Shown here one piece after another: positions 7,501 through 54,380 of a stretch of 64,000 bases of DNA (position 1 is its first letter; every line of letters begins with the position of its first letter). This stretch comes from Prorocentrum cordatum. Taxonomy: Eukaryota > Sar > Dinophyceae > Prorocentrales > Prorocentraceae. The stretch is from assembly GCA_963575745.1 (NCBI GenBank), contig CAUYUJ010015685.1, positions 254,205-318,204 on the forward strand. The letters run 5' to 3'. Below the pieces are notes generated by a model. The model worked only from the letters and a program-made list of their open reading frames with translations, had not been told where the DNA came from and searched no databases. The position numbers were made by a program, and so were the translations under genes.

Positions 7501-8550
<1,050 letters not shown>

Positions 8551-28617: not shown

Positions 28618-29426
28618 GATAGTGTTGGGCGGCAGGCATTCGGCGAAACTTTGTTTGTAATCGAATCGCGGGCCCAGGCGGGCTGCTGCCCAAATCGTCA
28701 AGGGTTACAGTCACCAGCACGCCCAGCGCCTTTGTTGAACATTCGGCGCAGTTGGCACTCAAGCATAACACTTTCTAAATATGTGTGTGTGTGTTTGTGC
28801 GTGTGTGCGGGCGTTTGTGTGTGTGTGTGTTTGTCGATGGCGAGCTTGGTGTCTCGGAGCACTGTTTTGGCTCCTTCTCCCGGCCGCCCTGGCCCTTAGT
28901 CGGCTCCGCCGACGCACCCTGCCATTCGGGGCTCCTACACGCCGCCATACCCCCGCATGATTTACGGACGGCGACTTTGCGTCATTTCGCGGATCATTGT
29001 GGACCGTCACGGTTCAGCAGCGTCTCGTGCCGCCAACGGATCAATAGCGACGGCCTCACCGTGAGGATCGCTGGCGTGCCCTGGCCACCCGCGCCTCCGA
29101 GCGCGGGCCAGTCCTGCTTCTCTGCGACGCTTCGCGGCACGCATAAATGTTTCTTTTCGCAGTTTTTGACGCGGCTCAGCTCCAGTCTCATCTCAGACGT
29201 CTCCCTCGAGCGGCTGCTGCTGCTCCTCGACGTTCCGGCGGTGCTCGCCGACGCACGTGTCCCTTTGTACGCGCATCTGCCATGCTGGTCGCCAACGTTG
29301 CTAGCCCCGACGCTGCTGCCCACCCCAGCCGCCGCTCCGTAGGGGCTGGCCCGCCGGCGTCTGTTGCGCCACTGCCCGCTGCCCGCCGCCCCCCGCCACT
29401 TCCCCGTGATGGGTCTTCGGTTCTCT
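28618..29426. other. unassigned DNA with (GT)n tract
   Basis: GTGTGTGTGTTTGTGCGTGT and related GT-rich sequence lie at 28779-28832. The remainder up to the retrotransposon has no recognised gene. Confidence 0.5.
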
Positions 29427-29838
29427 GAAACAGTAACCGTTTTAGCATGCCAGCCTTGTCTGTAAATTCCCACTAGACACCCTTTTAGCCTCGAGAGGCC
29501 CCGAGTGCGTTTCAGCTTCTATTATTGCGATTACTGTGAATGTTCTGCAGTTTCAGCTTGCATATTTGCCCCTCTCAGGCTTGTGCCGTTGCATGGCCGC
29601 TTCGGTCAAACCAGCTTGAGGGGCCCCTCTTGTAGAGCCGCCAGCCGGCGACATCAGACAGATAACTCAACATATAAACATCCACAGGCAATCATATTAT
29701 ACAACAGTCAGATCAGCGGTCTGAGATTGCCGGGCTCGAGGCCCGAATCATTATTCCGCTCCCGCCGGGAGCTACATACGCAGGACTGAAGGCCGTGGCG
29801 ACGCTCCGCTCGCGGCAGTGAAAAGAAGTCCGATCACA
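29427..29838 (+). repeat. 5' LTR of element 1
   Basis: Starts TGAAACAGTAACCGTTTTAG, in which AAACAGT and ACYGTTT form an inverted repeat; ends CCGATCACA. It is 412 bp, longer than the 3' LTR by a TATTGCGATTACTGTG-type insertion at about 29522-29538. AACATATAAACATCC (about 29669) is a possible TATA-like element upstream of the transcription start, but this is unproven. Confidence 0.93.
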
Positions 29839-29858
29839 TTGGTAGCGCACGTCGTGAA
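29839..29858 (+). other. primer-binding site of element 1
   Basis: TTGGTAGCGCACGTCGTG follows the 5' LTR by one base. TGG is the complement of a tRNA 3' CCA end, and TGGTAGC agrees with the start of initiator-Met PBS sequences, although the following bases differ. Which tRNA primes cannot be decided without the host tRNA set. Confidence 0.6.
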
Positions 29859-29875
29859 CTTGAGTTCTCGCCACG

Positions 29876-31300: not shown

Positions 31301-31735
31301 TGTCTCAGTCAGTCTTCAAGGGCCTGGCAGTCGGAGATTCAATCGAGTATATCGACGAGTTTGACGGTAAGAGTTGGATGATTGCCGATACCGCGTGCCA
31401 AAGGATGGTCCATGGATCCGCTTGGGGGGCATTCACGCCCAGAGGCTCGAAGACAGATCCCTGCCCCTCGTCGAGCGGGCCGCCCAGGAGAGGTTCAAGT
31501 TCGGCGAGGGCCCCGAGATCCACTCAGTCCTCCGATGGGGTTACCCGATAGGCATCGCAGGTGTGGCGCTCTGGGCTAGGTCTTCCGAGGTGTCGTCCGC
31601 GATTCCCCTGCTAGCCTCCAACGAGTTCATGGTCTTCTTGGGGGCCTCCATCAACGTGTTCGTGGGGGCAATCAGCTTCTTGGCGGTCGGGGTTACGACC
31701 TCCCGCTTCAGAGGGCCAGGAACGGCCAGCTCATC
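31208..31735 (+). pseudogene. retropepsin-type protease of element 1 (phase-shifted)
   Basis: The catalytic motif region is MIADTAC (Asp codon 31387-31389) in frame 1. The rest of the fold (ERFKFGEG..., YPIGIAGVALWARSSEVSSA, IPLLASNEFMVFLGA) is in the next frame after a G6 run at 31424-31429. The final strand (GYDLPLQRARNGQLIVCI) is in a third frame. Retropepsins cleave the Gag-Pol polyprotein as dimers. Both phase changes have the direction expected from one-base deletions. Confidence 0.75.
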
Positions 31736-32775
31736 GTGTGCATCTCCAAGTTCCCGAACGAGTTACCTGACTTCTCGGATTGGGACACCTTGGATGAGGA
31801 CGTCACCCTACCCCCCGATGCGAAGATCAAATGTGAACACCGTCGAGTGCGACACCTCGAGCGAGTACAACTGAACCAGAGGACCTCGGCGAGCGAGTCT
31901 ACCAATATGGACGTGCGATGACACCAGCGATGCGTGCACTTCGACATTGCCGACGACGGCCTAGCCGAGTGCGAGACCCCCGAGGGCGCCATCGAGATCG
32001 AGCGATCCGAGTCGACTAGCCAGCCATCTTCGGTCAAGCAGCCCAGTCCCAGCAGCTGCCAGCTTTCCATATCCGAGCCTTTGGCTCCTCCCATAATGCA
32101 GCCAGTCCGCCGCAGCGGATGCGGCCGCAGATCCGCGAGAGATGGAACCGACTTCTCATGCGCCTGTGGGCGGTCATCTACGCGGCCCTGAGCGCAGGTC
32201 AGGCCTTTCGAGCTTCGTTGATGACGGGCACGGGCTTTCGGAACGCGTTCCTGAAGGCGACGCCGCTCCTGGCTGCCTTCGTCAAGGGATGCGCCGAGGG
32301 TCTGAAGGCGCACGAAGCCTACCTGGACATGAAGGCGCCCAAAAGACGCGAGCCGCGCGACCACCAGGACTCGACCACGGGGGTCTCGACCATCAAGGAG
32401 TACTGCGCGGGTCGCCACGGGTGGTGCGCCAGGTGCCAGCAGCCGGCGTGCCAGATGAGGTGGAAGTGGATCGTCACCGACACCCAGTGGATCGAGTATC
32501 CCGACGACCTTCCCAAGTCATCGCGGGCATCCCCCTCGCGGCCGCCGCCGCTGTCACCGGCAGCCATAGCAGCGAGAAGCACCGCATCGCCAGCAGCGCC
32601 GAGCGCATCATCTTCGAGACCCTCAGTCCCAGCACAGTCCTTCACGGCGCCCCGCTGCAAGGTGATGTCCAAGCAGGCGCCAGCCAGGCGCCGCCGCCCC
32701 AGGGAGACCGACGCCATCATGGAGGAGGACGACTCGGACGGGGAGATATCCAACGAGGGCTTCGAGGAGCTCTGA
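31736..32775 (+). pseudogene. linker region of element 1 polyprotein with Cys cluster
   Basis: Frame 2 continues through an in-frame UGA (31919-31921) into an acidic Ser-rich stretch (HFDIADDGLAECETPEGAIE). Coding character then passes near 32110 to frame 1 (MRPQIRERWNRLLMRLWAVI..., to TGA 32773-32775). That part contains C-X6-C-X2-C-X4-C with Arg/Trp neighbours (WCARCQQPACQMRW), a possible zinc ribbon just ahead of the methyltransferase-like domain. The other long open frame starting at 32142 is out of phase here and becomes the true one only from about 32772. Confidence 0.5.
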
Positions 32776-35700
32776 AGCGTCGCATCGGCGACCTCAACCG
32801 CACCATCTCCGCGCACGAGGTCGAGGCTAAGGTTCGGGACGTCGTCGACAGCGCCGCCCGACAGGTCAACGCCGAGGCGCCGCGCCACGTGCACATCCTC
32901 GAGGGCTTCGCCGGACAGGGGAACATCGCCAAGCGCGCGCACCTCTTCGGCCTCGCCGCTCTGCAGCCCGTCGACCTCATCTACGGCTTCGACCTGGGCG
33001 CGGTCGCTGGTCGACGGAGGTGGGGCCACGCCGTCAAGACGTTCAAGCCGCCGGTGGTTATCATGGGTTTCCCTTGTACGAAGTGGTGCTGGTACAACTG
33101 CGCGATTAACTACCGTGACTTCCCCGACCTCCTCGCTTCCCTCCAGGGCAAGGATCGGCCGCTGCTCAAGCTTGTCGCATGGACCGCTCTCGAGCAACAG
33201 AAGAACGGCAGGTACTTCCTCCTCGAGAACGCCGACCAGAGCCAGGCGTGGGAGCAGCCCGAGTTCGACCCGCTCTGGAAGGACCACCACACCGTCTGGG
33301 GACGCGGCGACAGCTGCCCCTATAACCTCAGGGCCCTCAACGGCGAGCTGATGTGGAAGACTCTGACGTGGGTAAGCAACCATCCCAAATTTGCGGAGTC
33401 GGTGACCCGCAGGTGCGATCGCAGCCATCGTCACGCTGAAGTTCAAGGGCGCGATACTTCTCGCTCTCAGGTATTCACCGAGGAGCTCGCATACAACATC
33501 CTGACCGTCGTGCAGCAGGTGGTCGCAGTCCGATCGCCTGCTTCGCTCGCCTGGACATCTAGCTACGACCAGTGCCGGTACGGATGGCGCCCTCAGGACA
33601 GCACCCCCGCGGACCGCCACGACCAGCTCTACAGCGCCTGGTTCGTCGACGTCGACCGCGACACCGACGAGCGGCAAGTTGTTCTCACCCAGACGATGCT
33701 CATGATGGAGGATCGGGCCCGCGACACCTGGGAGCTGCCGCCAGGCCACGAGATCTACCAGCGCATCCAGGACCTCGTGCCATGGGAGCTCGTTCGAGTG
33801 CAATCCGCCCGGGTACCGAAAGCGCGTAGGCACGCAGTCGACATCGTCTACCGCCACCGCGGCATGGCCGCCATTGCCCACGCAGGTAACATCATCGTCG
33901 AGACTGAAGCGCTGAAGGACGTCCAGTACCCGAAGCTCCGCTTCAGCGAGCCGATCGCCCTCGCCATCTTCTTCTTCGGGAACGCGCCTGAGTCGGCCAG
34001 CGCCGACGGCGAGCTGCCTTCCGAGGTGCCGCAGCCAGGGCCTGCTGCTGCCCAAGTTCACCCTGAGAGCGCCGCGGAGCCTCCAGTGGAAGAGCCGGGC
34101 GCGCGTCCGCCGGCGCCGCCAGTTCAGGCTGCCGATCCCGACCTCTACTCTATCGCAGGGTGCCGCATCAAGTTCCCTAACCTCAGCGATGACCAGTGCC
34201 CCCGCGAGATCAAGGCGATGGTCGCCCGCCCCCACTGTCATCGCGGACACGCTGGCCGCGAAGATCTCCGACGTTTCTGCGCCTGGCAGGGGGCCAAGCC
34301 ATCAGTCTACCTGGCGAGCGACTTCTTGAAGTGCGAGGCCTGCGAGCGGACTCACCCGCCAGCCAGGCCCAAGCCGATCTCCGCGACGATTCGGTACCTG
34401 GGTCAGTTCCGCGAACACCTCCAGACCGACTTCTTTACTATCGTAGACGTCACCAACACGCCGCGCCACATGCTCGGTATCATATGCCTCAACACACACC
34501 TCCACCGCGTGAAGCGCGTGGTCGACCGCTTCCCCGAGACAGCCGTGTCCGCCTTCCTGGAGGCATGCGCGCTACCGATCGGCATGCCGATGGCCAGCAC
34601 CGTCGACATGGACGGCAGCTTCATGGGCTACTTCAAAGAGCGGCTCGAGTCGTACGGGGTCAACGTCTCCTACTGCCCGCCCGACGCACATTGGCAGATC
34701 GGGACCGTCGAGAGGCATGACGCGTCATGGAGGTGCATCTGGAATCGGACATGCGACGCCTGTGCTGTGAAGACCGCCGAGGAGGTTGACATGACTACCA
34801 TTGCCGTCAGCGAGGCCAAGAACAACGCAGTTCGCCGGGCCGGGCGCTCCGCTAACCAGTGCGCCCTGGGAAGGACTCTTCGTATTCCTGGCGAGTTGCT
34901 CTCCGACGATCACGGCCTTGCCGTCGCCGCCAACGCCACTAACTCGCAGCGCGTGATGAACAGCGACTTCTACCGCATGGAGGCCAACATCCACACGGCC
35001 CACTTCAACTACGAGCAGCACGTAAGGAAGTCGCTCCTCAGGAAAACCAGTCACTTGCGCTACGACCTTGACAAGCTCGTCGCAGGCCAGCAGGTTGGAT
35101 GCTGGCGCCGGGACGCCAAGAAGCGCCCCAGCGGCAAGTCGTCGCGCCCAGGCTTCGCCATTGGCACCTTCCTACAATGGGACGGCGGACAACAAGGACA
35201 CGGACTCGGCCGCAATGTTTGGGTCAGAGTCGGTCAGGCCATCAAGCTCTTCAGCCGCGAACAGCTTCGACCAGCCATTGGTTTCGAGCAGTGGGTGCCC
35301 GATGCCAAGGACATCGAGGTTCTTAAGAGCAGCTTCGACCTCATGAGGGGCGACCTCTGGGAGAACGAGCGAGACGCCGGGCCCGCGCCCGACGACCTGG
35401 CGGAGGAGGCCGGCATCTTCGTCGACGGCGGCCGCAACCTTCTTCCAGGCCGCGAAGGACTTTTGCCTCCACAGCCTGCCGATGCCGATCATCCTGGAGC
35501 TCAGCCCGTTCCAGTCGAGCCGCCGCCAGCCGCGGCGGCCCCGCCTCAGCCAGAGGCGATTCCGTGCGAGCCGACGCCGGTCGAGACCGAGGTCCCGCGC
35601 ACGATCCCTATGGACGCGGAGGTCACTCAGGCCACTGACTCCGTCTCCGCAGAGCCGAACACGATCGAGACCGATCTGAAGGTCAGCACCCCCAGGTCGC

Positions 35701-36209
35701 CTCGCAGCCGAGCCGCCGAAAACGAAGTCCCTCCAGAGGCCGACCCTCCAGACGAGAAGAGGCCCCGCGTGTCTACCTTGTGTGCGCAGGCTTGGCTGAC
35801 GTCTTTCTGGGCCACCGAGGTCGGGGGCGGCGCTGACGGCCCCGGCGAGACGCCCGCCGTGTTCGCCAATGTCAGCCGTTACGCCGACTACGCGGACGAG
35901 ATCGAGATCATCTACCAGGTGAACGCCATCGTCGCCGACGACGGGCCCAAGCTTCCCCTGGTGCCCGACTCCGAGGACGACGAGCCTGCCGACCAGAACC
36001 AGCCCACCATGACGAGGGCCGAGCGGAAGGCCTACGACCGCGAGATCCCGTGGCGCGAGATCATGAATATGGACGGCTCCACCATCCAGAGCTTCCTGCA
36101 GGCCACGCGCAAGGTGTACAGCAACTGGGTCAAGTGGGCGCCGATGGTCGCAGTGCCAGACGACGTCGCCAAGGACATGCTCAACTCGCCCGAGATCCGC
36201 AAGAGCTGA
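32772..36209 (+). CDS. pol: Pol of element 1: methyltransferase-like domain, integrase, start of RT
   Basis: The phase is open from 32142, but meaningful coding begins at about 32772. First comes a Rossmann/C5-methyltransferase-like domain: HILEGFAGQGN (motif I-like, 32900-32932), MGFPCTKW (Pro-Cys, motif IV-like, about 33063), GRYFLLENA (motif VI-like, about 33205), and a C-terminal segment up to about 33540. After a Pro/Ala linker comes integrase with a His/Cys zinc finger (RPHCHRGH... and KCEACERTH), core Asp in LQTDFFTIVD (about 34427), second Asp in STVDMDGS (about 34600) and Glu in GTVERHD (about 34705). A variable Pro-rich stretch leads to the RT N-terminal part. UGA at 36207-36209 ends the frame inside RT; the same frame continues unbroken beyond it. 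Confidence 0.88.
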   Translation: MKRRIGDLNRTISAHEVEAKVRDVVDSAARQVNAEAPRHVHILEGFAGQGNIAKRAHLFGLAALQPVDLIYGFDLGAVAGRRRWGHAVKTFKPPVVIMGFPCTKWCWYNCAINYRDFPDLLASLQGKDRPLLKLVAWTALEQQKNGRYFLLENADQSQAWEQPEFDPLWKDHHTVWGRGDSCPYNLRALNGELMWKTLTWVSNHPKFAESVTRRCDRSHRHAEVQGRDTSRSQVFTEELAYNILTVVQQVVAVRSPASLAWTSSYDQCRYGWRPQDSTPADRHDQLYSAWFVDVDRDTDERQVVLTQTMLMMEDRARDTWELPPGHEIYQRIQDLVPWELVRVQSARVPKARRHAVDIVYRHRGMAAIAHAGNIIVETEALKDVQYPKLRFSEPIALAIFFFGNAPESASADGELPSEVPQPGPAAAQVHPESAAEPPVEEPGARPPAPPVQAADPDLYSIAGCRIKFPNLSDDQCPREIKAMVARPHCHRGHAGREDLRRFCAWQGAKPSVYLASDFLKCEACERTHPPARPKPISATIRYLGQFREHLQTDFFTIVDVTNTPRHMLGIICLNTHLHRVKRVVDRFPETAVSAFLEACALPIGMPMASTVDMDGSFMGYFKERLESYGVNVSYCPPDAHWQIGTVERHDASWRCIWNRTCDACAVKTAEEVDMTTIAVSEAKNNAVRRAGRSANQCALGRTLRIPGELLSDDHGLAVAANATNSQRVMNSDFYRMEANIHTAHFNYEQHVRKSLLRKTSHLRYDLDKLVAGQQVGCWRRDAKKRPSGKSSRPGFAIGTFLQWDGGQQGHGLGRNVWVRVGQAIKLFSREQLRPAIGFEQWVPDAKDIEVLKSSFDLMRGDLWENERDAGPAPDDLAEEAGIFVDGGRNLLPGREGLLPPQPADADHPGAQPVPVEPPPAAAAPPQPEAIPCEPTPVETEVPRTIPMDAEVTQATDSVSAEPNTIETDLKVSTPRSPRSRAAENEVPPEADPPDEKRPRVSTLCAQAWLTSFWATEVGGGADGPGETPAVFANVSRYADYADEIEIIYQVNAIVADDGPKLPLVPDSEDDEPADQNQPTMTRAERKAYDREIPWREIMNMDGSTIQSFLQATRKVYSNWVKWAPMVAVPDDVAKDMLNSPEIRKS

Positions 36210-37403
36210 ATCCGGGCGCGATGCTGCTATCGTGACAAGAACTGCGGCCAAGGAGAGCTTGCTGCGAAATGCCGGGGAGTTGCCGTCGGTTGCAGCGACC
36301 CGAGGCTCGAGGCGCTCGAGCGGAGGTCCCCCACTACGCAGCGCATCAGCTTCTTCGCAGCATGCCAAATCCTCGCCAGCATGAAGATCTACGGCGCAGA
36401 GGGCAACTGGACCGCCTGTGTCGGCGACCTCGAGAACAGCTTCTTCCAGGGCAGCCGCGAGAGGGAGGACAAGGTCTACCTCATTCCACCGCGTGACCCA
36501 CTGGTCATCGCCACTGGCTCCTGGCCAGATACGTTGTACGAGGTGACCGGCAACATCTACGGTTTCGCCGACGCCCCACTGGTGTTGTGTCGTCACATTC
36601 GACGCAAGATATACGATTTGGGTTTCGTAAGTCGTAGCCTGGACGTGATGTGTTTTCTGAAGTTCGATAAGGGGCGTTTATTGGCCATTGTCTTGTGGTA
36701 CGTCGACGACATGTTCGCCGTATACGCCGAGAGCCGTTTCGATTTCTCCCAGCTGGAGAAGGTTTTCGTGTGGGGCAAGCTCGTGTATATGCCTCAGGAG
36801 CTCGTGTGGTGTGGGCGTGAGATCAACCAGTGCCACGACGGCCGAGTCGTCATCACTCAGAAGGAGTACGTCAAGGGTTTAGAGGTTCGCCGCATCCCAC
36901 CCAGCCGCATCCGAGAGGGAGGTTCCCTTACACCCGCAGAACGGACCGAGATGCGGAGCTGTATTGGATGCGGTCAGTGGTTTTCGGGTATATGCCGTCC
37001 GGATGTTTCGTCATACGTATCGACGTTGCAGAGCGAGGGCCCCCAGATTTCCGATCTTAAGGCGATGTACAAAACCATAGATCACCTGAAGAACACGCCA
37101 GAGGTTGGGATTACGACGATGCCGTTGCAGTTGTTTAACGATTCCGGATATATCGACGTGATTACGGTTGCGCACGGTGACTTGAGTTGGGCCAGCGCGC
37201 AGCAGATGAAGAGCCAGACCGGAGCGATGATCGTTTGGGCCAATCGAGATGCACTCTCAGGGTCAGCACCTGCCTCGTTGGCCGATTGGAGGAGCGCGAG
37301 GACACAACGCCTAGTGAGGTCCACCTTGTCAGCGGAGGCTTGTGCCGCTGACGCAGCCGTTGATAGAGGATGTTATGCTTCTGTGTTTTGTCAGAGGTTT
37401 TAA
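36210..37403 (+). CDS. pol: RT-RNase H of element 1, continuing after UGA
   Basis: Same frame as the preceding ORF, without another stop until 37401-37403. RT signatures are SPTTQRISFFAACQILAS (fingers/palm), VGDLENSFFQG (the DVKxAFLxG position, first Asp), IYGFADAP and the catalytic WYVDDMF (36699-36710). The RNase H domain starts near 37130 (HGDLSWASAQQMKSQTG, ARTQRLVRSTLSAEA). It copies genomic RNA into DNA and removes the template. The first ATG (36381) is internal to RT and is not a real start. At the right end coding passes to another phase near 37385. Confidence 0.87.
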   Translation: MRARCCYRDKNCGQGELAAKCRGVAVGCSDPRLEALERRSPTTQRISFFAACQILASMKIYGAEGNWTACVGDLENSFFQGSREREDKVYLIPPRDPLVIATGSWPDTLYEVTGNIYGFADAPLVLCRHIRRKIYDLGFVSRSLDVMCFLKFDKGRLLAIVLWYVDDMFAVYAESRFDFSQLEKVFVWGKLVYMPQELVWCGREINQCHDGRVVITQKEYVKGLEVRRIPPSRIREGGSLTPAERTEMRSCIGCGQWFSGICRPDVSSYVSTLQSEGPQISDLKAMYKTIDHLKNTPEVGITTMPLQLFNDSGYIDVITVAHGDLSWASAQQMKSQTGAMIVWANRDALSGSAPASLADWRSARTQRLVRSTLSAEACAADAAVDRGCYASVFCQRF

Positions 37404-37729
37404 CAGGCCGTTCATATATAGCCAACCGCATGGCTGACCGCACGCCGCCTAGTGTGCCGCTCTATGCTATCACGGATTGTAAGAGTTTGTACGACTGTGT
37501 TACTCAAGAGAACCCCAGCTTGGATGAAAAGCGGGCGCTTCTCGATGTTCTTTCTATCCAGACCCGTCTTGGTCTAGGTTCGATGAGGTGGGTCCCAACC
37601 TCTAACATGATAGCCGACCCCCTCACGAAAGTGTCCGATCAGTTGCGCGACAGTTTAGTTCAGTGGCTCCGCGAGCCCGCCATCGATTTGTTTGGAGCCG
37701 TTGCCGAATCAGTATCAGCTTTTGCGTGA
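37380..37729 (+). pseudogene. RNase H C-terminal part of element 1 (shifted phase)
   Basis: After the phase change the frame gives PLYAITDCKSLYDCVTQENP (RNase H Asp) and RWVPTSNMIADPLTK, the standard end of copia RNase H, and stops at 37727-37729. The change from the preceding frame is again in the one-base-deletion direction. Confidence 0.8.
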
Positions 37730-37769
37730 TTTCTATTTCTGCCTTCAGACGTCTCTCGGAGTTTTCAGC

Positions 37770-37791
37770 CAGCAGAAGAGAGAGACCAGTC
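37770..37791 (+). other. polypurine tract of element 1
   Basis: AGCAGAAGAGAGAGACCAG lies directly before the 3' LTR, where plus-strand DNA synthesis would be primed. Confidence 0.7.
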
Positions 37792-38187
37792 TGAAACAGT
37801 AACTGTTTTAGCATGCCAGCCTTGTCTGCAAACTCCCACTAGACACCCTTTTAGCCTCGAGAGGCCCCGAGTGCGTTTCAGCTTCTACAGGTTCTGCAGT
37901 TTCAGCTTGCATATTTGCCCCTCTCAGGTTTGTGCCGTTGCATGGCCGTTTCGTTCAAACCAGCTTGAGGGGCCCCTCTTGTAGAGCCGCCAGCCGGCGA
38001 CATCAGACAGATATCTCAACATATAAAGATCCACAGGCAAGCCTATTATACAACAGTCAGATCAGCGATCTGAGAGTGCCGGGCTCGAGGCCCGAATCAT
38101 TATTCCGCTCCCGCCGGGAGCTACATACGCAGGACTGAAGGCCGTGGCCACGCTCCGCTCGCGGCAGCGAGAAGAAATCCGATCACA
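37792..38187 (+). repeat. 3' LTR of element 1
   Basis: 396 bp, TGAAACAGTAACTGTTTTAG to CCGATCACA. Lacks the 16-bp segment of the 5' LTR. Here the AAACAGT/ACTGTTT inverted repeat is perfect. Confidence 0.93.
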
Positions 38188-40600: not shown

Positions 40601-40609
40601 AGAGGATAC

Positions 40610-44210: not shown

Positions 44211-45401
44211 TCTGAGAAGGACGGGTTGTGAGCGGATTCCCGTCCGACGGCGGCGCCAACGGCAACGACGGATGGCGACGGGGGAGCCGGGACCGCGGCC
44301 ACCGCAGGAGTACGCGGCCAGCCTCGGGGTGCCCGCAGGCCAGGTGCGCTTCTGAGGGCTGCGCGTTCGAGCGCCGGGCGCCGGACGCTTCAGAGCGCCG
44401 CGCCGCGAGCGGGCCTGGCACGCCTCTCGCTCGCGCTCCTTGGCAATCCCTATCCTGGTTCGTCTCGCGGCTCCCAAGGGGTCCCAGAACGGCGCGGGTA
44501 CCACACCGTCCAGTGAGTTCGAGCGAGAAGTAGCGAAAACATAGGCCTCTGCAGGTCCGCACGGACCCCCGTGGTGCCGCCTAAAGCGCCGGAAGGAGGC
44601 ATGGCTGAGGAGGGGGGGGGAAGGCGGCGGCGGAGGAGAAGGAGGAAGAGACGAACAACGAGATGAGGATAGGGAGAAACAATGAGGGATCTGTGCTGGC
44701 ATTTGGAGTCCACGCTGCGGCGGCGCCTCGCTGGGCCGCCCCCAGCCCCAGGGCAACCAGCTGCGTCCCTGTGCAACAAGCTACATGAGCTTGCGTCTTC
44801 GGAGGTTCACGCGGATTTCTTGGGTCGGCGCGAACCATGGAAATTCAGTATTCGTGTTTGGTTTTGGTGCTCTATGGGTCAACCGTGACTCGGGGGCAGT
44901 GGACAACTTTGGACTTGGATCGCTCTCCGAGGATGTCTCGAGCGCATGAGGCCTCCAAAGTCCTGAAGCCGTCCCGTCCAGGACCGTCTGGTGGGGTTTT
45001 CGGGATCTCGCTGGCATCAGATCGTCGGTGACCAGACGGGTTTAGAGCACATCATCTTTGAGCAGGCAAAAGTCGAGCAGGCCCAGAAAGAAGATGACTC
45101 GTTCAAGAGCGTTCCAGAATGCTCAGAGGGTTTCACATCGCTCTAGAATGGCCGCGGCGCCAAGTACATCTTCCATACCTGTACGACCATCCATCGGGTG
45201 ATAAGGAGGTTGGGTGGGGTGGACCAACTGATGACAACTGCGCTGGGACACCATTAGGGCACCCTGGGGACAAACAAATGCCCCCATAGGGACACCATCA
45301 GGACACCATTGCGGTCAATCCGTACATTATTTGTCAATCGATCTCACGATTGGCCCCACTACAGGTCTCGCTGTCGACCTCACTTTCGGTCACACTATCT
45401 T
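44211..45401. other. unassigned DNA
   Basis: No gene recognised. GGGACACCATYAGG is repeated three times at 45245-45312. Confidence 0.4.
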
Positions 45402-45629
45402 TGAACTCCGTTCTGCTGCCCTGCTGCAGTCCAGAGTGAGCGCAGCCCCTTTTGCTCCGACCAGCGTGCCAGCAGGCTCACGAGTCTCGGGCGCGGGCCG
45501 CCCGAGAGGCAGTAAAACCTCGGGCCCCAGGCTTGGGCCCACAGTGGTTGCGGGAGCACGGGAGAGGGGCAGAGGGAGAGCAAAGAGGAAAGGGATAGGC
45601 GGGTTGAGGCGAGCCTGGAAATCTTCACA
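45402..45629 (-). repeat. 3' LTR of element 2
   Basis: On the element strand it runs TGTGAAGATTTCCAGGCTCG to CGGAGTTCA, 228 bp, with TG/CA ends. Confidence 0.92.
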
Positions 45630-45670: not shown

Positions 45671-48600
45671 TCAATCTGCGATGTCCCGCATCTCATTCGC
45701 TCTCACGAGTTTGTCCTTCTGCCTCTTCTCCGTCTTCCTAGTGTCGATGGCGGTCTTGCGGCTAGCACGCTGCATACTCTTCTTCATCTTGATCGCCGCC
45801 GCCGCCGGATCCTGCACCAGGCTCCACTTGGCCTCCCGCAGCACCTTGTAGAGGTAGACCTTGTCCACCCCCAGCTTCGTCAGCACATCTGCGATGTTCT
45901 GCGAGCCGTCGATCCACCTGAGGTGGGTGTTCTCGCAGCGCAGCATCTCTCTGAGCAAGGCGCCCTCGATCGCCATCCTCTTGTCCTTGCTCTTGGTCGA
46001 GCCCTCCTTTGTGAGGTGGTCGTAGACGGACTTTGCGTCTGTCGCCCAAAAGCGGGGAAGCCGCTGCACCTCCCCCTGCCAGTTGAGCAAATCCACCGAG
46101 ACGTTCATCGCCTCTCTGAACAGCACTGCCGCCCAGTCGACGGCCTCCACTGCGTCCGCCAGGTGACTGGCCTCCGCTGCCAAGGTTGAGCGGCACACAC
46201 GCTGCGTCATGCCACTCTTCCAGTCCAGCACTGCCACCGGTGCCTGGTGTCCGGCCAGGATGCCGTCGGTCGTGAGGAGCACCACGTGGCCACCGCAACT
46301 CTTGTAGCGCTCGATGTCGTCGTGCTCGGGGCCGTTCGCGTGACCCGCGTCCACGGCCGCGCCAATCACAGCGCTGGACAGCCTCAAGTTGGCCGGGTAG
46401 ACCAGCGCGACCTCAGCGCCCTTCTTGGCCTCAGACACCGCCAGGTTCGCCTTCACCAGGTCCGCCACACACGGGGCAGCTCGGGCCCTCTGCAGCTCGC
46501 CCGAGAGGAAGGCCAGGTCGAGTCGGCACTGTCGACCTAGCCAGCCGATCTCACCAGATACCCTCAGCAGCTCCTTCGCCTCATCCTCGTTCAAGTCCTC
46601 CTGCAGCTGCTTCCTTCGACCTGCTGGGATCTTGATCGGCTTGAGGGAAGTTGCGTAGTTCACCATCTTAACCAGAAAACCTCTCGGATCACTCGAAAGC
46701 TCACGGCCGCGGAAGGTGAAGGGCAGCTCGCTCCACTTCCACTGGAACGTACCCAGGACCTTCGGCAAGAGGTCCGACAGCTGCATGTCCTTCATCCTCG
46801 CCACCAGCACGTCGTCAACGTGCGAGACCGCGATGCCCTTCAGCTGCCCGTCCACGCGCTTGTAGAAGAGCGCCGGCTCCAGGCGCGACTGAAGCCAGCC
46901 GTCGGACAGCAAGGCGTCACGCAGCGCTAGCCAGAATAGCCTTGCTGCCTCCGCGAAGCCGTAGATGGCCTTGCGGGCCCTCGGCAACTGGCCCGGGGCA
47001 AGGCCAGGCAGGCCTCCTCGAGGCTGCTCCAGGTAGACCTCGCGCTCCAGGTTCTGCCCATTGAAGTAGGCGTTCTTGACGTCGCCCAGGGAGAGGATCA
47101 TGCCCATAGCCGCCGCCAGTGTCAGGAGCAGCGCCTCCGCCAGCCGTGAGGCAGTGGGAGCGTCCCGCCTGAACATACCCAGCAAGCGGTCGCGAAAGCC
47201 CACCACGACCAGGCGACTCTTCGCGAGCAGCGGCAGAGGGGCTCCGGCCTCATCGTACTTACCGTCGTTCTTGTCGGTATCCACCCAGCGCATCGGGATG
47301 ATGATGTTGGCCTTGTCCGCGCGGAGCGCCTCGCTCTCATCCGGCGGGATCGGCTCTGCCGCGTCAAAGTCCTGCCAGGATCGCCACTCTGCATCACGGC
47401 TGCCACCTCGATCCATGAACATCCGGCGTTGCTCCTCAGGCAAGCTGCCGAGCTTGATCTCCTTCCTCCCAGGCTTCTTCGTCAGGAAAGCGTGCTCGAA
47501 CTCATTCCGTATCAGCCCGAAGATGAACTCCTCCTTGCCGATGCCCTCCTGGATAAAGAAAGCCTCGTCCTGCTGGTACGTCTCCAAGCCGGCCTCCATG
47601 AACTCATCCAGGTCATTGTCCAGCACGAACTTAGCCGAATCGGCAGGCGCCGAGAGGCTGGATCCTGCAGTCCCCTGTCGGATCGAGACAGGGACATCGT
47701 CCAGCAGGCGCCGTCGCTTGGCCTCCCGCTCGCGGCGCTCCTCAGTCTCCTCTTCCTCCAGGAGACTCCCAGGACGCCGATGCCGAGAGGCCCCCGGCTC
47801 GGGCTCCGTGTGCACCCCGTGGGAGTCGGGGTGCCAGTCATCGTCGCCGTCGTCCCTCATGATCTCCTGCATCGCCGCGTCGAACTCCATCGCGTCGAAG
47901 TCCAGGTCGGGCGGCACGGGCACGTCCTCAGCCCCCACAGCTGGGGCTGGCGCCGCGGGCGGCTCGGGCGCGGCTGGAGCCGCGCGGGGAGCCTCCGCCT
48001 CAGGCGGGGCCGGAGGCGCCTCCGGCTCAGGCGGAGCCGAGGCGGGCTGCGGCTCCTCCGGCACCTCCGCCCGCGGCCCGACGTCCATGCCGCTCTCGTC
48101 GCCCTGCTCAGCGGGCTCCTGTCCCGCCGCGGCGGGGGGCTTGGGCCGGCCTCGCAGGTCAACGAAGCCGCTGCCGCCGCTGACGGGCGTGTCGTGCACC
48201 AACTCCTGCTCCTGCGCAATCGATCTCCAGGCGTGGATCTCGTGGCCAGTCGCTGCAGCCAGGTGCTCCGGGCTCGCGAGCACGGTGAGGCCACGGAAAG
48301 CAAGCCACACTCCATGCCGTCGCTCATGTCCGATCACGCGCGCCAGCCCTCGCCTGTTGTCTGGATGCTCAGGTCGATGCTTGGCTGGCTGCGCTTGGTC
48401 GTAGAAAAGCACCCACTGGCCAACAACGAACGGCCCTCTCGTCGGTCGTATCTGTCGAAGCTCCGCTCGTCGAAGTCGATCCTCCGTGTCGGTCTGGATG
48501 AAAGCCATCCGGCACTGGGTCCTGATCTCCACCTTGCGGGCAAAACGCGAGCCCGGCGTAGCAGCTGCCACCTGCTCGCCCACGCGCTCCACCTCGGCGT

Positions 48601-49035
48601 CGTCCGCGAGGCTCGCCGGGAGGCGAACATCTCGTCCGAGGACCCAGAGGTAGGGACTGAAACCAGCCCGCCGGGCCAACGTGTTCTTGGCCCTGTTGCA
48701 CTCCGTCACTGCCGTTCTCATCTCCTCAAGGCCCGCCACCTGCTTGTCGTGCGCCACCCTCGTGAGCATCGAGTTCCAGATGCCGTCGTGGCGCTCCATC
48801 TTGCCGATGTGCCACGGCGAGGCCAGAGCGGCCGAGTCCAAGCGCGCGCCCTCCTGCTCCAGGTAATCCGCGAACTCGCCCAGGAAGGACCGCGCGCGGT
48901 CCACCATGATCGCCTCCTCCGGCTGGCCAGCCCAGGAGACCCAGCAGAGCTCGTAGAATTTCCTGACATCCGAGGCCTTGGGGTTCTTGTGAGTGTCCTC
49001 CAGCAGGCAGACCACGTGGAAGTTCGTCCCCATAC
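45671..49035 (-). CDS. pol: Pol of element 2, downstream part: integrase core, RT, RNase H
   Basis: An open frame of about 1120 codons in phase with the part upstream of the insertion. Order: rest of integrase core (EEAIMVDRARS, second Asp about 48900; GKMERHDGIW, Glu about 48790), integrase C-terminus, an acidic Pro-rich linker (about 48180-47450), RT (PMRWVDTDKNDGKY..., LLAKSRLVVVGFRD, SLGDVKNAYFNG near 47080, catalytic SHVDDVLV near 46815) and RNase H (DWKSGMTQRVCRSTLAAEAS near 46200, FWATDAKSVYDHL near 46040, HLRWIDGSQNIADVLTK). A basic tail ends at the stop 45671. HVDD instead of YVDD keeps both catalytic Asp. The first ATG (49033) lies at the insertion border and is not a true start. 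Confidence 0.93.
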
Positions 49036-49054
49036 TGTATGGGGACGAACTTCC
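49018..49054. repeat. perfect 18-bp inverted repeat at insertion border
   Basis: GGAAGTTCGTCCCCATAC (49018-49035, integrase sequence) and its exact reverse complement (49037-49054) are separated by a single T. The right arm belongs to the inserted sequence, so the insertion begins with an inverted copy of its own target flank. Confidence 0.95.
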
Positions 49055-49372
49055 AGGGCGGCTCCAGGGGTCGCCTCAAGTCGCCCCGACGACGCGCCAG
49101 CGCGATTCCGATCGCGCCCTAGGTGCCCCGATGCGCCCGGGAGCATGGGCAACGCATGGGAAGCAACATCAATGTGAAAAGCGATGGGGGGGGGGGGGGG
49201 GTCGGTGTACGAGTTGGCGCACGAACGACGCATGGAAATTCGCACGCCTATTGCCGCGCGTGCGCAGCCCCGAGGTTCCCTGGCAAGCCGTTATGTGAGT
49301 GCGCTTGCTTTTTTTTTTTTTTTTTTTTTTTGTTCTTTTTTCTTTTTTTGTTTTTTTTTTTATTCTCTTTTT

Positions 49373-49453
<81 letters not shown>

Positions 49454-49742
49454 TTTGTTTTTCTTTTTATTTTTTTTTTTTTTTTTTTTTTTCCTTTTAT
49501 TTTTTTGTTTTTTTTTTTTTTGAACGTAAGCCCGCTACCTCAGTCGTCCATTCATCGGTTATTGGCGGTTTGCGATGTGCGAATGTCCTCTGATATAATG
49601 AGTGGTAGCTGGGCCGAGATGCAAATGAATTGCGGCAAACGCTGCGCGCGGCAGGCCGTGGAAGCGAAATGCAAGATTGCTCGTGAGCCAGCCCCTAAAC
49701 TACCCCCCCCCCCAATAGCGCAGACCCCCAAGACAAAGCCAA
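49036..49742. mobile_element. 707-bp insertion in integrase of element 2
   Basis: CCCATAC occurs at both borders (49029-49035 and 49743-49749), as expected for a 7-bp target duplication. Insertion plus one duplicate is 714 bp, a multiple of three, which is why both integrase halves share a phase. The insert holds a G16 run (49186-49201), a 210-bp T-rich tract (49309-49521), then unique sequence and a C11-type run. No ORF, no terminal inverted repeats of its own and no recognised family. If read on the minus strand the T tract is A-rich but internal, not terminal. Confidence 0.85.
49309..49521. repeat. 210-bp T-rich tract
   Basis: Near-homopolymeric T interrupted by single C, G or A, the longest uninterrupted stretch about 65-70 T. 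Poly-Phe open frames here are artefacts. Length may be inaccurate in any assembly. Confidence 0.97.
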
Positions 49743-52276
49743 CCCATACACATGATGCCAAGGAGCTCCCAGTTGTTGCCGGCGCTGTCGACATTCTCGA
49801 AGCAGTCCATCGCGAGCAGTACGTTAAACTCGTCGACCCTCGGGAGCTGACTCGGACGTGGGATGCTGGGTCGCTGCGCTCGCCGGCAGCTCTCACAAAC
49901 AAACAGCCTCGCTGCCTTCAGCGCCAGCGCCGTTGCCTTGCCCAGGCGCAACGCCCTGAGCAGCGCTGGCCGTGAGGGGTGCCCGAGGTTCACGTGCACC
50001 CTCTCGATCGCCCTCTTGACGGCTCTCGGCAACAGCTCCCAACGTCGCTTCCTCTCCCGTGAGGCGTCCCGCTGCTGTGCTGCAGCCGGCCCCTCGGGCA
50101 GGTCGCCCCGCTCGTAGCCCGCGAAGTAGAAGACCACCACGTCGTTCTCGAGTAGATGTCGTGGCAACCAGCGCCGTCGTGCTTGCAGTGACTGTTGCGA
50201 CCAGTCCTCGAAGTCTAGCCTGAAGAGCTGGTCGCCCTTGAGCGTAGTGACCATCCTGAGCGGGGCGTCCGCGGCGTGCAGCTGCGGCTGCGCTGTCTGG
50301 AGCCGCTGACCCCCGCGTCTAGCCTTCACCATCTTCAGCGGTTCGCTGATGACTCCTCCCAGCTCCTCCAGGAAGAGGTCCGAGCCCCAGATGATCGTCT
50401 CGATATCCTCGCCCATCTTCTCCAGTAGCCTCCTATGCCAACTCCGGAACGTGTCCAGCTCAGCGCACAGCTCCACCGTCAGCAGCTCGAACTCGCCGTA
50501 CTGCGTACGCCGTCCCCGGCGGAAGCCCAGCGGGCGTCCGCCAGGAGGCACGCCGCGCTCGCGGCGAGCAGGCGCTCGGCCGCGCCTGGGCCTCACGGGC
50601 ACCTCGGCCGGTGCCTCTGGGGCCTCCGCCGCCGCCTCGGCAGGCGGCGCGTCCTCTCCGAGAGGCGGGCCCTCCTGGCGGCGGGCTCCGCGATCGCGGA
50701 CGCTCGTGAGGGAAGCGTCCTCCACCGGGAAGGCCGCATCCATGACCAGCGAGCTGCGGTAGTCGATCTGCATCTGCTGGAGCACGCCGCGACAGAAGGC
50801 CTTCGCGAGGCCCACGGGGTAGGCTGCCGCCTGCTGCGCCCGATAGCCGCCCGAGTTCCTCCCGAGCAGCTGCTGGTGGGCGCCGGGCGGACAGGCACAG
50901 CGCTTGCTCAGTTGGTTCGCCACCGTTGCGCTGTTCGTGAGCCACCCCGTCGGCTTCTTGATCGGCTTGCCCGTGTCCCTGTCGCAGGCTCCGTAGGCAC
51001 ATTGATCTCCGCGCACAAACACAACACCTTCCAAATCCCACAAACGTATCAGGATGCCATCATACTCCCAAGAAAGTGCTGTCAAAGGCTGCTCTATCAA
51101 GAAATACCGTCCTCTCGCATGCACACATCGAGATACCCGTCGAACGAGCAAAAGATAGCGACGAGCACTCCTGCGGACCTCATCCCAGTCGATGAGCTTG
51201 TTCATGTTGGTCATCAGAGACCACGGATGACAGGGAAAAGCCAACACTGTGATGTAAGGCCAGTGCAGGTCGAGGATCCGGTAGAGTAAGGCCCGTCCAG
51301 GGCCCTTGAGCAGGTCATAGTCGGGAGAGTGGTCCACATCCAGCGGCTGAGACTGCATCCAACCGTACTCCTTTGCACCGTAGCGCGTCAGGATGTGCTC
51401 TCCACCGAACGGCTCGAACACCACCGTGGTCTGGAAGTCGGCGGTCACGAAACGCTCCGCCTCGAACCTCGGTCGAAGTAGCTCCTCCCGTAGTCGACGA
51501 TCCTCTCCACGAAGCTCACGCCAGGTGGACTCGAGCTTCTTCCGAGTCGTCTTGGAGAGGATCCCTGTCGCGTCGGTGGCCAGCACACCGCGATCCTTCG
51601 ACAGGAATGCGTGGCCAACCTCCTCCTCGACTCGGATCTCCTCGCCGTCGGACTCCTCGAAGACCGACTCCTTCTGCGCCTGCGCGTAGAAGAACTCCGA
51701 GTCCCTATTCTTCGAGATCGCCGTCGCTGATCTTGAACTCGAAGCTGCTGCCGATCGGTGACCGTCATCGTCTCCCCAGTCATCAAGTCGCAGTGCCAAG
51801 TGACCGCCCTGCTTGAGCAGCTGAACGTCCACGGCGAGCGTCTGCAGCTCCATCCGCATCTCCTTCAAGTGGAGCACGGCACCCAGCGCCTCCTGCGACG
51901 CCAGGCTGACCAGGAGCGGGGTGTCGCAGTCCTCCATCTCCGTGCTGAAGATCACCCCGCGGCGGCCGCCAAGGGCGACCGGGATCTCGACCACGCGCCC
52001 CTCCTGCCTCTTGCCGAAGGCCGAGGAGAAGCTCCTCACGCGGTCCGTCACCTTGATCTCGAGGCCGCGGGGATGCAGGCACCTCTTCTCGAACAGCTCC
52101 CGCCAGTGTTTGCCGTGCATACATCTTGTGCAACCGGTATCGATGAGCGCCACTGGTACGTCAGACGTGTCCCTGTCTTCACTCACCATAAGCACCATCT
52201 CCAAAAATCCTTCCCCGGGTACTGGGCGCACGTGGCGCCCGCGAGGGGCCCCTCTGGGCCCCGGTGTGGAGTGTGC
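49743..52276 (-). CDS. pol: Pro-Pol of element 2, upstream part: protease, methyltransferase-like domain, integrase N-terminus
   Basis: Open in the Gag frame immediately after the UGA. Protease: VALIDTGCTRCMHG (catalytic Asp codon 52141-52139), ending about 51830. Methyltransferase-like domain: VVFEPFGGEHILTRYGA (motif I-like, about 51400-51425), LAFPCHPWSLMT (Pro-Cys, about 51230), RYFLIEQPLTALSWE (motif VI-like, about 51100), KPTGWLTNSATVANQL and a C-terminal AAAYPVGLAKAF segment (to about 50780). After a Pro/Arg-rich linker comes an integrase zinc finger (HVNLGHPS about 49990, FVCESCRR about 49890) and core Asp in LLAMDCFENVD (about 49800). The frame then runs into the insertion (false stop 49700). 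No ATG is needed if translated as a Gag fusion. Confidence 0.92.
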
Positions 52277-52279
52277 TCA
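52277..52279 (-). other. in-frame UGA between Gag and protease of element 2
   Basis: A single UGA (context SSA-UGA-GCA) separates two parts of one uninterrupted frame. Either it is a CGA-to-TGA mutation or a readthrough stop that limits Pol relative to Gag. The UGA C-type or CUA readthrough contexts are not present. Confidence 0.7.
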
Positions 52280-53806
52280 GGCCGAAGACGGCGGTGGCCG
52301 CGCCTCGCGCAGCCTCTGCTCGCCCTCGTTGTAGTTCAGCGTGCCCTTGCAGTCCGGAAACTGACTGCATCCGAAGAACCAGCCGCCTGTCCGATGATTC
52401 TGGCGAGCCACCAGAGCCTTGGAGCACTTCGGGCACGGCAGCACCTCGTCGTCCTTCATCGTCGGGAGGATCGTGCTGAGGCTGTCGCTGACCACACTCG
52501 CGCTGTCGCCGACGTCGCTGCCCACGAGCTTGAAGGAGCCGAGGTCGGAGCCGCGGTCCGAGCTGACGAGGAAGGCCGAGTCGTACTCGACGTCGTCCAG
52601 CACGAAAAGGGTCGCGTCCCTCCGCTTCTTGGCACTGGTGCTGCTAGATGGGCGGGGACTGCTGCCCGAAGCCGAGGGGCTGCTCCATGCCGGGCGCGAA
52701 AGCGCCGCCGCTCGTCCACGTGGATCCGCTCGACTCTTCGGCTTTGCCGACGGCTTCGGCCTCTTCGGGCCCATGGGGCACTCCGGATCCCCCGCCCAGT
52801 GGCCGAGCTTACCGCATGCCCCGCAGTGCGTGCGCTGCTTGTCCTTTGCGATCTCCGCCTTGCGCTCCTCAAAAGTCAGCGTGCCCTCCGCCTTGAAGAA
52901 GCCACGCTTCCGCTGGAGGTCCCGAACCTTGGCCCGCGCAGTGTCGTAGGCGGCGTACGCGTTGTTGATCGCCTCGTCCTGACTCGCGCCAGCGTCGCTG
53001 GCGATGTTCTCCTCGGCGTCGCCGTCCTCGTAGGCCTCGTAGACCTCGTCGTCGTAGTCCTCGTCCTGCTCGTCCTCCTCGTCGTCCACGTCGTCCGCCT
53101 CGGTGTAGTACACCCTCGTCTGCTTCTTGGACTTGTCCTTGCCGCCCTTGCCTCCACCCTTCGAGCGTCCATGAGGATGAGGCTGTGGCGGCCGGGAGGT
53201 CTTCTCCTGCAGGTGGAGGTCGTGGTAGTTCGTCTTCAGTGTGTTCTCGAAGGCCTTTGTCTCATACTTGTTGTCCGCCACCATCGTGACCAGCCTCTTC
53301 TGGTCATCTGTCAGCATAGCCCCCTCAAGGAGGAAGTACGCGTAGAGATCGTCGCTGAGCTTCGTCCCCGTGTCCAGCTCTGTCAGCTCCTTGTACTTGT
53401 TGTGGAACGTCCTCAGGTACTCGACGATCTCCTGGCCACGACGACGGCGGGATCTCTTGAAGAAATCGTCGAACTTCTGCTGCTTGCGCACTACCGCTAC
53501 CTTATCCAGGCCATCGAGAGCCTCGATGATCTTCTGGTGCGAGCCGTCCTGGGTGAGCGACGCCAGGTCGTCCAGCAGGGGCTCCACCGCCTTCCACGCG
53601 CGGCCCGTGAGGCCCCGCGTCAGGCGCAAGCCCAAGTTCGCCCGCTTCTCCTTGCCAGCCTCCGTCGAGCTCGACTGTGTGCTGTACTCTATCATCACCC
53701 TCATTCGATATTCTCGTAGAAGAGCTATGTTCTCACCGTCCCAGTGCGGGATGCCCTCTTTGTCGACAAAGAGCTCCTCTGCGGACTCGTCTGTCATACG
53801 GGCCAT
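52277..53806 (-). CDS. gag: Gag of element 2 with zinc knuckle and topoisomerase-type zinc finger
   Basis: The start MARMTDESAEE is the first ATG after the primer-binding site; the longer frame to 54328 runs through the LTR and is not real. 509 codons. Residues about 20-190: helical UBN2/copia-type Gag (EYRMRVMIEYSTQ, LTRGLTGRAWKAVEPLLDDL, IVEYLRTFHNKYKEL, LEGAMLTDDQKRLVTMV). Then a basic Gly/Lys stretch, a very acidic stretch (TEADDVDDEEDEQDEDYDDE), a zinc knuckle near residues 326-341 (C-X2-C-X4-H-X6-C, GHWAGD), and near residues 455-488 a C-X2-C...C-X5-C finger (PCPKCSKALVARQN, FFGCSQFPDCKGT) typical of the C4 zinc finger of type I topoisomerases. It forms the particle and binds RNA. Confidence 0.93.
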   Translation of the reverse strand: MARMTDESAEELFVDKEGIPHWDGENIALLREYRMRVMIEYSTQSSSTEAGKEKRANLGLRLTRGLTGRAWKAVEPLLDDLASLTQDGSHQKIIEALDGLDKVAVVRKQQKFDDFFKRSRRRRGQEIVEYLRTFHNKYKELTELDTGTKLSDDLYAYFLLEGAMLTDDQKRLVTMVADNKYETKAFENTLKTNYHDLHLQEKTSRPPQPHPHGRSKGGGKGGKDKSKKQTRVYYTEADDVDDEEDEQDEDYDDEVYEAYEDGDAEENIASDAGASQDEAINNAYAAYDTARAKVRDLQRKRGFFKAEGTLTFEERKAEIAKDKQRTHCGACGKLGHWAGDPECPMGPKRPKPSAKPKSRADPRGRAAALSRPAWSSPSASGSSPRPSSSTSAKKRRDATLFVLDDVEYDSAFLVSSDRGSDLGSFKLVGSDVGDSASVVSDSLSTILPTMKDDEVLPCPKCSKALVARQNHRTGGWFFGCSQFPDCKGTLNYNEGEQRLREARPPPSSA

Positions 53807-53814
53807 TCTCTCCG

Positions 53815-53847
53815 CCGTAGATCGAAAACCCTGCTCCGCGACCAGTT
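53815..53847 (-). other. primer-binding site region of element 2
   Basis: On the element strand the LTR end GGAGTTCA is followed by AACTGGTCGCGGAGCAGGG. TGGTCGCGGAGC would pair with a tRNA 3' end reading GCTCCGCGACCA, different from element 1. Confidence 0.5.
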
Positions 53848-54074
53848 TGAACTCCGATCTGCTGCTCTGCTGCAATCCGAGTGGGCGCAACCCCTTTTGC
53901 TCCGACCAGCGTGCCGGCAGGCTCACGAGTCTCGGGCGCGGGCCGCCCAAGAGGCAGTATAACCTGGGGCCCCAGGCTTGGGCCCACAGTGGTTGCGGGA
54001 GCACGGGAGAGGGGCAGAGGGAGAGCGAAGAGGAAAGGGATAGGCGGGTTGAGGCGAGCCTGGAAATCTTCACA
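53848..54074 (-). repeat. 5' LTR of element 2
   Basis: 227 bp; TGTGAAGATTTCCAGGCTCG to CGGAGTTCA on the element strand, with the same blocks as the 3' LTR (CTTTTGCTCCGACCAGCGTG on the plus strand). Confidence 0.92.
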
Positions 54075-54380
54075 AGGTGCGAGTGATGCAGGAAGGAACA
54101 CGGGCAGCCACCAGGGCTTCGTCGCCGCCGCAGGGTGAAAGCTTGTCTGCTGCCAGCACTGCGCAGTAGTGGCTGCGCCGTTTTGGGGTCGTACGAGGAA
54201 GGAGGGCGGAGGGAGGAGGAAACAGGGATGAGGACGAGGGATGGATGTGGGATGGGGAGTAGTAGAGGGAGGAGGAGGATGTTGCTATGATATTGCTGCT
54301 TGGGTCTGAACGCTGATAGAATCCACAACGCCCGACTCTCTTGCCGTGCAAGTTAAGAGTTACATGGGCTTACCAGTTGA
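54075..54380. other. unassigned flank
   Basis: Nothing recognised apart from purine-rich sequence at 54195-54285. Confidence 0.35.

Follow-up and report, generated by a model that had tools for sequence, protein, structure and literature searches.

What enzyme, if any, has been built into the polyprotein of a retrotransposon from the dinoflagellate Prorocentrum cordatum, between its protease and its integrase? The retrotransposon (element 2) lies together with a second one (element 1) in the window studied here, a stretch of 64,000 nucleotides from contig CAUYUJ010015685.1 (positions 254,205 to 318,204; host assembly GCA_963575745.1, 4.13 Gb in 21,875 contigs). Element 2 is of the Ty1/copia type and runs on the minus strand, with long terminal repeats (LTRs), an RVT_2 domain and an integrase that precedes the reverse transcriptase (RT). 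An initial annotation, made from the letters alone, had placed a C5-cytosine methyltransferase-like domain at 50780..51430 of this element, and had left it undecided whether this domain belongs to the methyltransferases that de Mendoza and colleagues described in other dinoflagellate retrotransposons. Judging from its predicted fold and its profile similarities, the domain of ~230 residues is almost certainly a homologue of C5-methyltransferases. With some reserve, we favor the reading that it is a compact, phage-type C5-pyrimidine methyltransferase with the DNMT/M.HhaI fold, which dinoflagellate Ty1/copia elements carry within their Pol polyprotein and which acts on their own complementary DNA (cDNA). 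The relevant parts of element 2 are:

49700..52276, minus strand: first pol frame, 858 residues, with protease, methyltransferase-like domain and start of the integrase (gag_pre-integrs E 0.0022, below the Pfam cut-off)
52130..52141, minus strand: aspartic protease active-site motif DTGC, in a region that aligns with the related protein P0001 (DTAC; E 8e-20)
50735..51514, minus strand: putative C5-methyltransferase-like domain, modelled residues 1-260, core 51430-50780 (AlphaFold2 model, Foldseek, hhalign)
51395..51418, minus strand: motif I-like FEPFGGEH, read from the sequence
51230..51232, minus strand: putative catalytic Cys of motif IV (C95 of the domain), within AFPCHPWS; hhalign pairs it with Dcm C177, and 58 of 60 genomic copies retain it
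51092..51094, minus strand: Glu of motif VI (E141 of the domain), within RYFLIEQP; hhalign pairs it with Dcm E224, and 60 of 60 genomic copies retain it
50933..50956, minus strand: KPTGWLTN block (K187, W191, N194), matching KPT.F.SN of a phage family in the alignment

The motifs FEPFGGEH, LAFPCHPWS and RYFLIEQP occur in the claimed order and spacing on the minus strand of a single open frame, and the domain sits where it had been placed, with DTGC (52141-52130) upstream and the start of the integrase downstream. The span first given holds for the core, while the modelled domain extends ~45 bases further 3', to about 50735. The departures from the textbook motifs that had been pointed out, EQP for ENV and the lack of PCQ, are present, but do not mark the enzyme as damaged, because relatives carry ENP, EQP, EHP or ENA in motif VI and the phage family has PPCE and ENP. 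Downstream of motif VI, an alignment of 27 rows (window domains included) contains the conserved blocks DQCxYG, KKPTGWLTN, C..H and AxxYP; the position of QxRxR (motif VIII) is taken by the KPTGW block, in a region that does not align with the canonical C5-methyltransferase set. C172 (50999-51001), C206 (50897-50899) and H213 (50876-50878) are mostly kept in the dinoflagellate rows and are not seen in the phage family; they are a possible metal site standing in for a target recognition domain.

The fold was predicted with AlphaFold2 (pLDDT 79.5, pTM 0.78). All 50 Foldseek matches listed for this model are C5-cytosine methyltransferases (DNMT3A, E 4e-4), and so are all 50 matches listed by the VIA structure comparison, from whose lists the absence of a family does not exclude that family. 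The predicted model has the S-adenosylmethionine (AdoMet) fold of C5-methyltransferases, and the structure prediction proposed in the initial annotation gave no confident match to a non-methyltransferase fold. A model from a shallower alignment had placed DNMT1 and DNMT2 first in Foldseek, with no E below 0.09 and with mixed rows (METT-10, a pyrophosphorylase, TesA); we regard this as settled because the model from the deeper alignment gave C5-methyltransferases throughout the listed rows.

Single-sequence searches say little about the domain. Pfam, NCBIfam and PHROG scans and Protein Data Bank (PDB) sequence searches of the element 2 and element 1 domains returned nothing useful. PF00145, at its gathering cut-off, found no match in these two domains, eight homologues, seven genomic copies and five element frames: the domain is not filed as a member of PF00145. 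Its identification as a canonical C5-methyltransferase by sequence alone was rejected, the PDB hits of the element 2 domain being a chitinase (E 0.64) and the profile hits ethanolamine kinase (E 0.14) and RelA (E 0.72).

Profiles of the wider family point to phages. Of the seven sequences first aligned for the domain, four reach phrog_2882 ('DNA methyltransferase') at E <= 1, with 1.1e-4 as the best value and no hit for the window protein; three of seven genomic copies match phrog_757 ('DNA methyltransferase'), one at 8e-4 and the others at 0.14-0.15. One relative compared with phages by tblastn (E limit 10) matched at least 50 records, 45 of them Streptococcus, with a best E of 0.02, which is not significant alone; 12 of the best 20 are annotated as C5 methylases. 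When the dinoflagellate family was compared with the phage C5-methylase family by hhalign, the probability was 94.3% (E 1e-7) and 94.1% in two alignments, 95.1% when dinoflagellate rows were added and 96.8% (E 2.7e-10) once genomic members were included. The match spans 153-166 columns, most of the domain, and links it to phrog_2882. Reversed and 20 shuffled phage alignments reached at most 1.1%. All seven phage family members examined match PF00145 at E <= 1, the best at 2.3e-7 (31 bits, cut-off 22). The same method places the Cys of FPC on Dcm C177 and the Glu of EQP on Dcm E224, which we take to be the catalytic residues of Dcm. Fold, profile similarity and the positions of Cys and Glu all agree, and the profile search that had been suggested as a check, including the alignment of the FPC Cys, therefore bears out the proposed homology.

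The phage proteins (phrog_2882: MAV1 MarMP; phages of Streptococcus, Enterococcus and Lactococcus) resemble the dinoflagellate domain in being compact (~235-270 residues, no evident target recognition domain) and in sharing PPC..WS, IENP..S..W, KPT.F.SN and a late (I/V)P block. They differ in being free-standing genes that PF00145 detects, identity is 19-27%, and they show no evident counterpart of C172, C206 and H213. Murphy et al. (PMC4190342) give, in the part of the article consulted, only adenine motifs for three 936 phages, which have no bearing on the activity of this family; the Mycoplasma literature consulted (among it PMC11096450) likewise offered nothing of use on it. A scan of IMG/VR with the phage family kept the best 80 of 163 relatives. 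A prokaryotic or viral source close at hand was not found, no relative being encoded in the 27 IMG/VR and 14 GTDB matches to one or two short peptide patterns.

Relatives are numerous. With residues 255-520 of the pol frame as query, a first protein search gave ten relatives at E <= 0.01 (best 4e-73): seven at 47-49% identity, among them P0007, which carries RVT_2, and three P. cordatum proteins at 89%, 40% and 32%. A profile search added 15 proteins (weakest 5e-20), one of them from Effrenium voratum and known from its domain sequence. The host genome holds at least 150 places that match at E <= 0.001 (150 scored of 5,590 candidates), including the window copy; a few are two pieces of one copy, and 16 of the 150 rows, as read from the table, contain an internal stop. 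In a tree of 28 rows, built without the most divergent genomic copies and with its root not fixed, 15 dinoflagellate domains of three lineages lie on one side of a branch with support 100/100. One further copy (L106, C13217:286847-287497) is identical to the window domain over 217 residues and also has an open frame of 858 residues, which may reflect a duplication or the other haplotype.

In the 27-row alignment, 22 of the 24 rows that span the Cys position retain this residue, and 25 of 26 retain the Glu. Sixty genomic copies were then picked from the 150 (from the table, not at random; 58 are stop-free): 20 of the element 2 type (94-100% identical to the window, no stops), 20 at 43-50% and 20 at 31-40%. 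Both residues expected of a C5-methyltransferase are retained almost throughout (Cys 58/60, Glu 60/60), whereas their surroundings vary: FPC, FDC, SPPC, APPC, SPTC, SPMC, SPEC, WPC and others occur, with P, D, T, M or E before the Cys and Q, H or N after the Glu. The pairwise ratio of nonsynonymous to synonymous substitution rates (dN/dS) is 0.141 in the element 2 type, where all 189 usable pairs are below 1, 0.194 in the 43-50% group (177 of 184) and 0.448 in the 31-40% group (178 of 178; dS near saturation), each from 190 pairs that share sequences and are not independent, the choice of open copies favoring low values. Among 19 copies of the element 2 type, variable sites number 33, 35 and 69 at the three codon positions.

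A homologous domain occurs in element 1, whose main features are:

29424..38187, plus strand: element 1 from LTR to LTR (29424-29838 and 37790-38187, 91.6%), from LTR comparison
32799..33521, plus strand: homologous methyltransferase-like domain, 26% identical to that of element 2 over 193 residues
32898-32921, plus strand: motif LEGFAGQG, followed by N, read from the sequence
33066-33086, plus strand: motif GFPCTKW, read from the sequence
33216-33236, plus strand: motif FLLENAD, read from the sequence
36210-37403, plus strand: RVT_2 region (E 2.1e-6, below the Pfam cut-off)

A search with the element 1 domain returned four P. cordatum proteins that match it at 78-81%; no candidate target-site duplication was found for this element. 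The position of the domain in the polyprotein was followed with an integrase profile built from P0007, P0001, P0011 and the genomic copy L173. It matches downstream of the methyltransferase in L173 and in L166, L167 and L174, which lie outside the profile, but not in two other copies:

L168 3247-9447: copia element with the methyltransferase directly before the RT (RVT_2 and methyltransferase matches)
L170 2539-6993: the same arrangement, RVT_2 below the Pfam cut-off

In these two, RVT_2 begins 76-77 residues after the methyltransferase match. The domain thus seems to occupy at least two positions, because in L168 and L170 it adjoins the RT and the integrase profile gives no match. In P0010, read by eye, integrase-like sequence lies upstream of the domain.

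From the computed homology, predicted fold, placement, retained Cys and Glu and low dN/dS, we infer how the enzyme may work. Inside the virus-like particle, the element protease would free or expose the domain, which would bind AdoMet there. Chemistry based on Cys and Glu is established for the C5-methyltransferase superfamily; here the FPC Cys would attack C6 of cytosine and the EQP Glu hold N3 while the methyl group goes on C5. The likeliest substrate would be cDNA of the element itself, methylated before it integrates or as it does so, and new copies would arrive pre-marked in the host genome, the genomes of related dinoflagellates being heavily methylated. Intact copies are probably catalytically active, and we incline, less firmly, to a DNA substrate (cDNA or target site) over an RNA one.

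Several observations weigh against this interpretation. PF00145 and the PHROG and NCBIfam models all fail to match the window protein. In Foldseek its model gives low TM-scores (0.26-0.42 of the query) and large root mean squared deviations, and direct hhalign comparison with five canonical C5-methyltransferases, bacterial and phage, is weak (8%, 23%, 29%) and weaker still with Dcm alone (1.2-3.1%). The real canonical set scored 28.95 and its reversed version 25.0 (2.75%); 20 shuffles of it stayed at or below 0.71%, and at or below 0.24% with genomic members included, and the control proteins Dam, RsmB, Fmt, Def, AroB (in part) and DgcQ did not exceed 0.45%. No target recognition domain is obvious, and in place of the QxRxR of canonical enzymes there is a KPTGW block. 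The Cys is lost in the proteins P0009 and P0019 and the genomic copies L142 and L146, and the integrase of the window's element 2 copy is broken by an insertion. Nor do base frequencies favor methylation at CpG: the observed/expected CpG ratio is 1.02 in one element and 1.08 in the other, versus 0.90 in the rest of the window, and C>T changes are not enriched at CpG (12/104 CpG versus 46/286 other C/G sites, P 0.33). CpG-context transitions account for three of ten LTR differences in element 2 and two of 18 in element 1, and no CpG mutation footprint of self-methylation was found in the two elements or in copies of the element 2 type. These sequence data weigh against a germ-line role of the domain in these copies that is specific to CpG; a non-CpG target, an RNA substrate or efficient repair would fit them as well.

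An active enzyme that, like DNMT2, has RNA as its substrate and modifies that of the element or the tRNA primer within the particle is unlikely, although it would suit the missing CpG footprint, the DNMT2 structures among the Foldseek matches, and the fact that so small a protein, with no target recognition domain, reveals little about a DNA motif. The closest sequence relatives are phage proteins annotated as DNA methylases, one of them beside marRP in phage MAV1, and two retroelement DNMTs act on DNA (PMC5890265, as far as its consulted text goes). We likewise give little credence to a methyltransferase fold that is dead or weak as an enzyme and is retained because it binds nucleic acid or AdoMet, for example to steer integration; it would account for the four sequences without the Cys and for the variation of motif VI (EQ, EN, EH), but is opposed by low dN/dS and by the retention of both residues in groups down to 31% identity. 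That the domain acts on another base, such as uracil, or takes part in another C5 pyrimidine modification, such as a step to 5-hydroxymethyluracil, is very improbable: this base occurs in dinoflagellate DNA (PMC11071213, in part) and the active site is divergent, yet a different enzyme for it was reported in 2024, according to the reference list of PMC12344493, and the phage relatives bear the annotation C5 methylase. We find it hardly credible that the motifs came together by chance or belong to an unrelated Rossmann fold. The lack of a Pfam hit and the weak, mixed Foldseek rows of the shallow model would favor such a reading; Foldseek, VIA, the phage profile, the PF00145 matches of the phage family and the genomic copies all oppose it, and the arrangement exceeds chance because there are 10 + 15 protein relatives, at least 150 genomic places and a dN/dS of 0.14 among 20 copies.

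How does a phage-type methyltransferase in copia elements relate to systems already described? It shares the fold and the Cys and Glu positions with DNMT3, DNMT1, M.HhaI and Dcm, but hhalign reaches at most 29% to the five bacterial and phage enzymes, and neither QxRxR nor a target recognition domain is seen. Capture of methyltransferases by LINE and DIRS elements and by a charophyte LTR element was known before (PMC5890265; this and the following statements rest on part of the article). SymbioDIRS-Dnmt3, SymbioLINE-Dnmt and KnitGypsy-Dnmt3 likewise carry a C5-methyltransferase in a retrotransposon frame and in many copies; two DIRS-type retroelement DNMTs gave CG methylation in yeast, and self-methylation of cDNA was suggested. 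These captures sit in LINE, DIRS and charophyte elements and were counted with PF00145, whereas the present domain, by profile closer to phage enzymes than to canonical ones, is invisible to PF00145 and sits in Ty1/copia elements with LTRs, RVT_2 and a copia-type integrase, not in a DIRS or LINE backbone; because of these differences in description and detection, as distinct from a sequence comparison, it is probably not of the same family. According to the same work, Copia is the most abundant class in Symbiodinium and 'lacks any DNMT domain', again from PF00145 counts. The blindness of PF00145 to the dinoflagellate members probably explains this statement, since none of those scanned hits PF00145. 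A 2025 paper (PMC12344493) refers to the 2018 work for some DNMT3 members that are embedded in elements of the kinds 'LTR Copia and DIRS'; in the part consulted the remark concerns DNMT3, and the present family is not described. Nor is it described in the consulted parts of PMC6338049, PMC10449503 and PMC11453091, and a search of the literature on Copia or LTR elements with methyltransferases, mostly outside subscription papers, gave no title describing it among those listed. Dam-like adenine methyltransferases of DIRS elements (PMC5890265) are also methyltransferases in retroelements, but the E. coli Dam control reached only 0.19-0.45%.

What is new, then, is the capture of a C5-methyltransferase in Ty1/copia, phage-like and hidden from the Pfam model of the earlier screen. 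It provides a large natural set of very compact methyltransferases and connects abundant copia elements, in a way that can be tested, with the unusual methylation seen in dinoflagellates. A bolder and rather doubtful extension is that dinoflagellate Ty1/copia elements broadly carry an active phage-type enzyme, in at least two positions, that writes a large share of genomic 5-methylcytosine; if true, the host methylome would in good part be made by its own retroelements.

The remaining parts of element 2 bear on the state of this copy:

53846..54074, minus strand: 5' LTR, 95.2% identical to the 3' LTR over 230 columns
45400..45629, minus strand: 3' LTR, from self-comparison of the LTRs
52277..54352, minus strand: gag frame, stop to stop, ending in TGA in the same frame as pol (open reading frame list)
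52784-52825, minus strand: CCHC knuckle in gag, sequence motif
52346-52435, minus strand: topoisomerase-I-type zinc ribbon in gag (PF01396 E 4.8e-8)
45671..49075, minus strand: remaining integrase, RT and RNase H region (RVT_2 E 1.3e-15)
49036..49742, minus strand: A-rich insertion of 707 bases interrupting the integrase, flanked by GTATGGG at 49029-49035 and 49743-49749

The window copy is probably immobile, because its integrase is interrupted by the 707-base insertion and gag and pol are split by an in-frame TGA; copies of the element 2 type elsewhere in the genome have open frames of up to 1,973 residues. The single TGA (52277-52279) may be a read-through signal or a mark of decay. No convincing target-site duplication was found for element 2, the lone 5-base candidate sitting inside the LTR ends. 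The insertion ends in GGAAGTTCGTCCCCATAC, the reverse complement of the element sequence directly after it. The C4 zinc ribbon of topoisomerase-I type in the gag protein of element 2 is, as far as we know, unusual in copia gag.

Elsewhere in the window, a tandem repeat array with a step of ~91 bases (self-BLAST offsets) occupies 39133-40603, and a long trinucleotide-type repeat at 7484-8514 would read as poly-Asp, poly-Met, poly-His or poly-Ile, depending on the frame.
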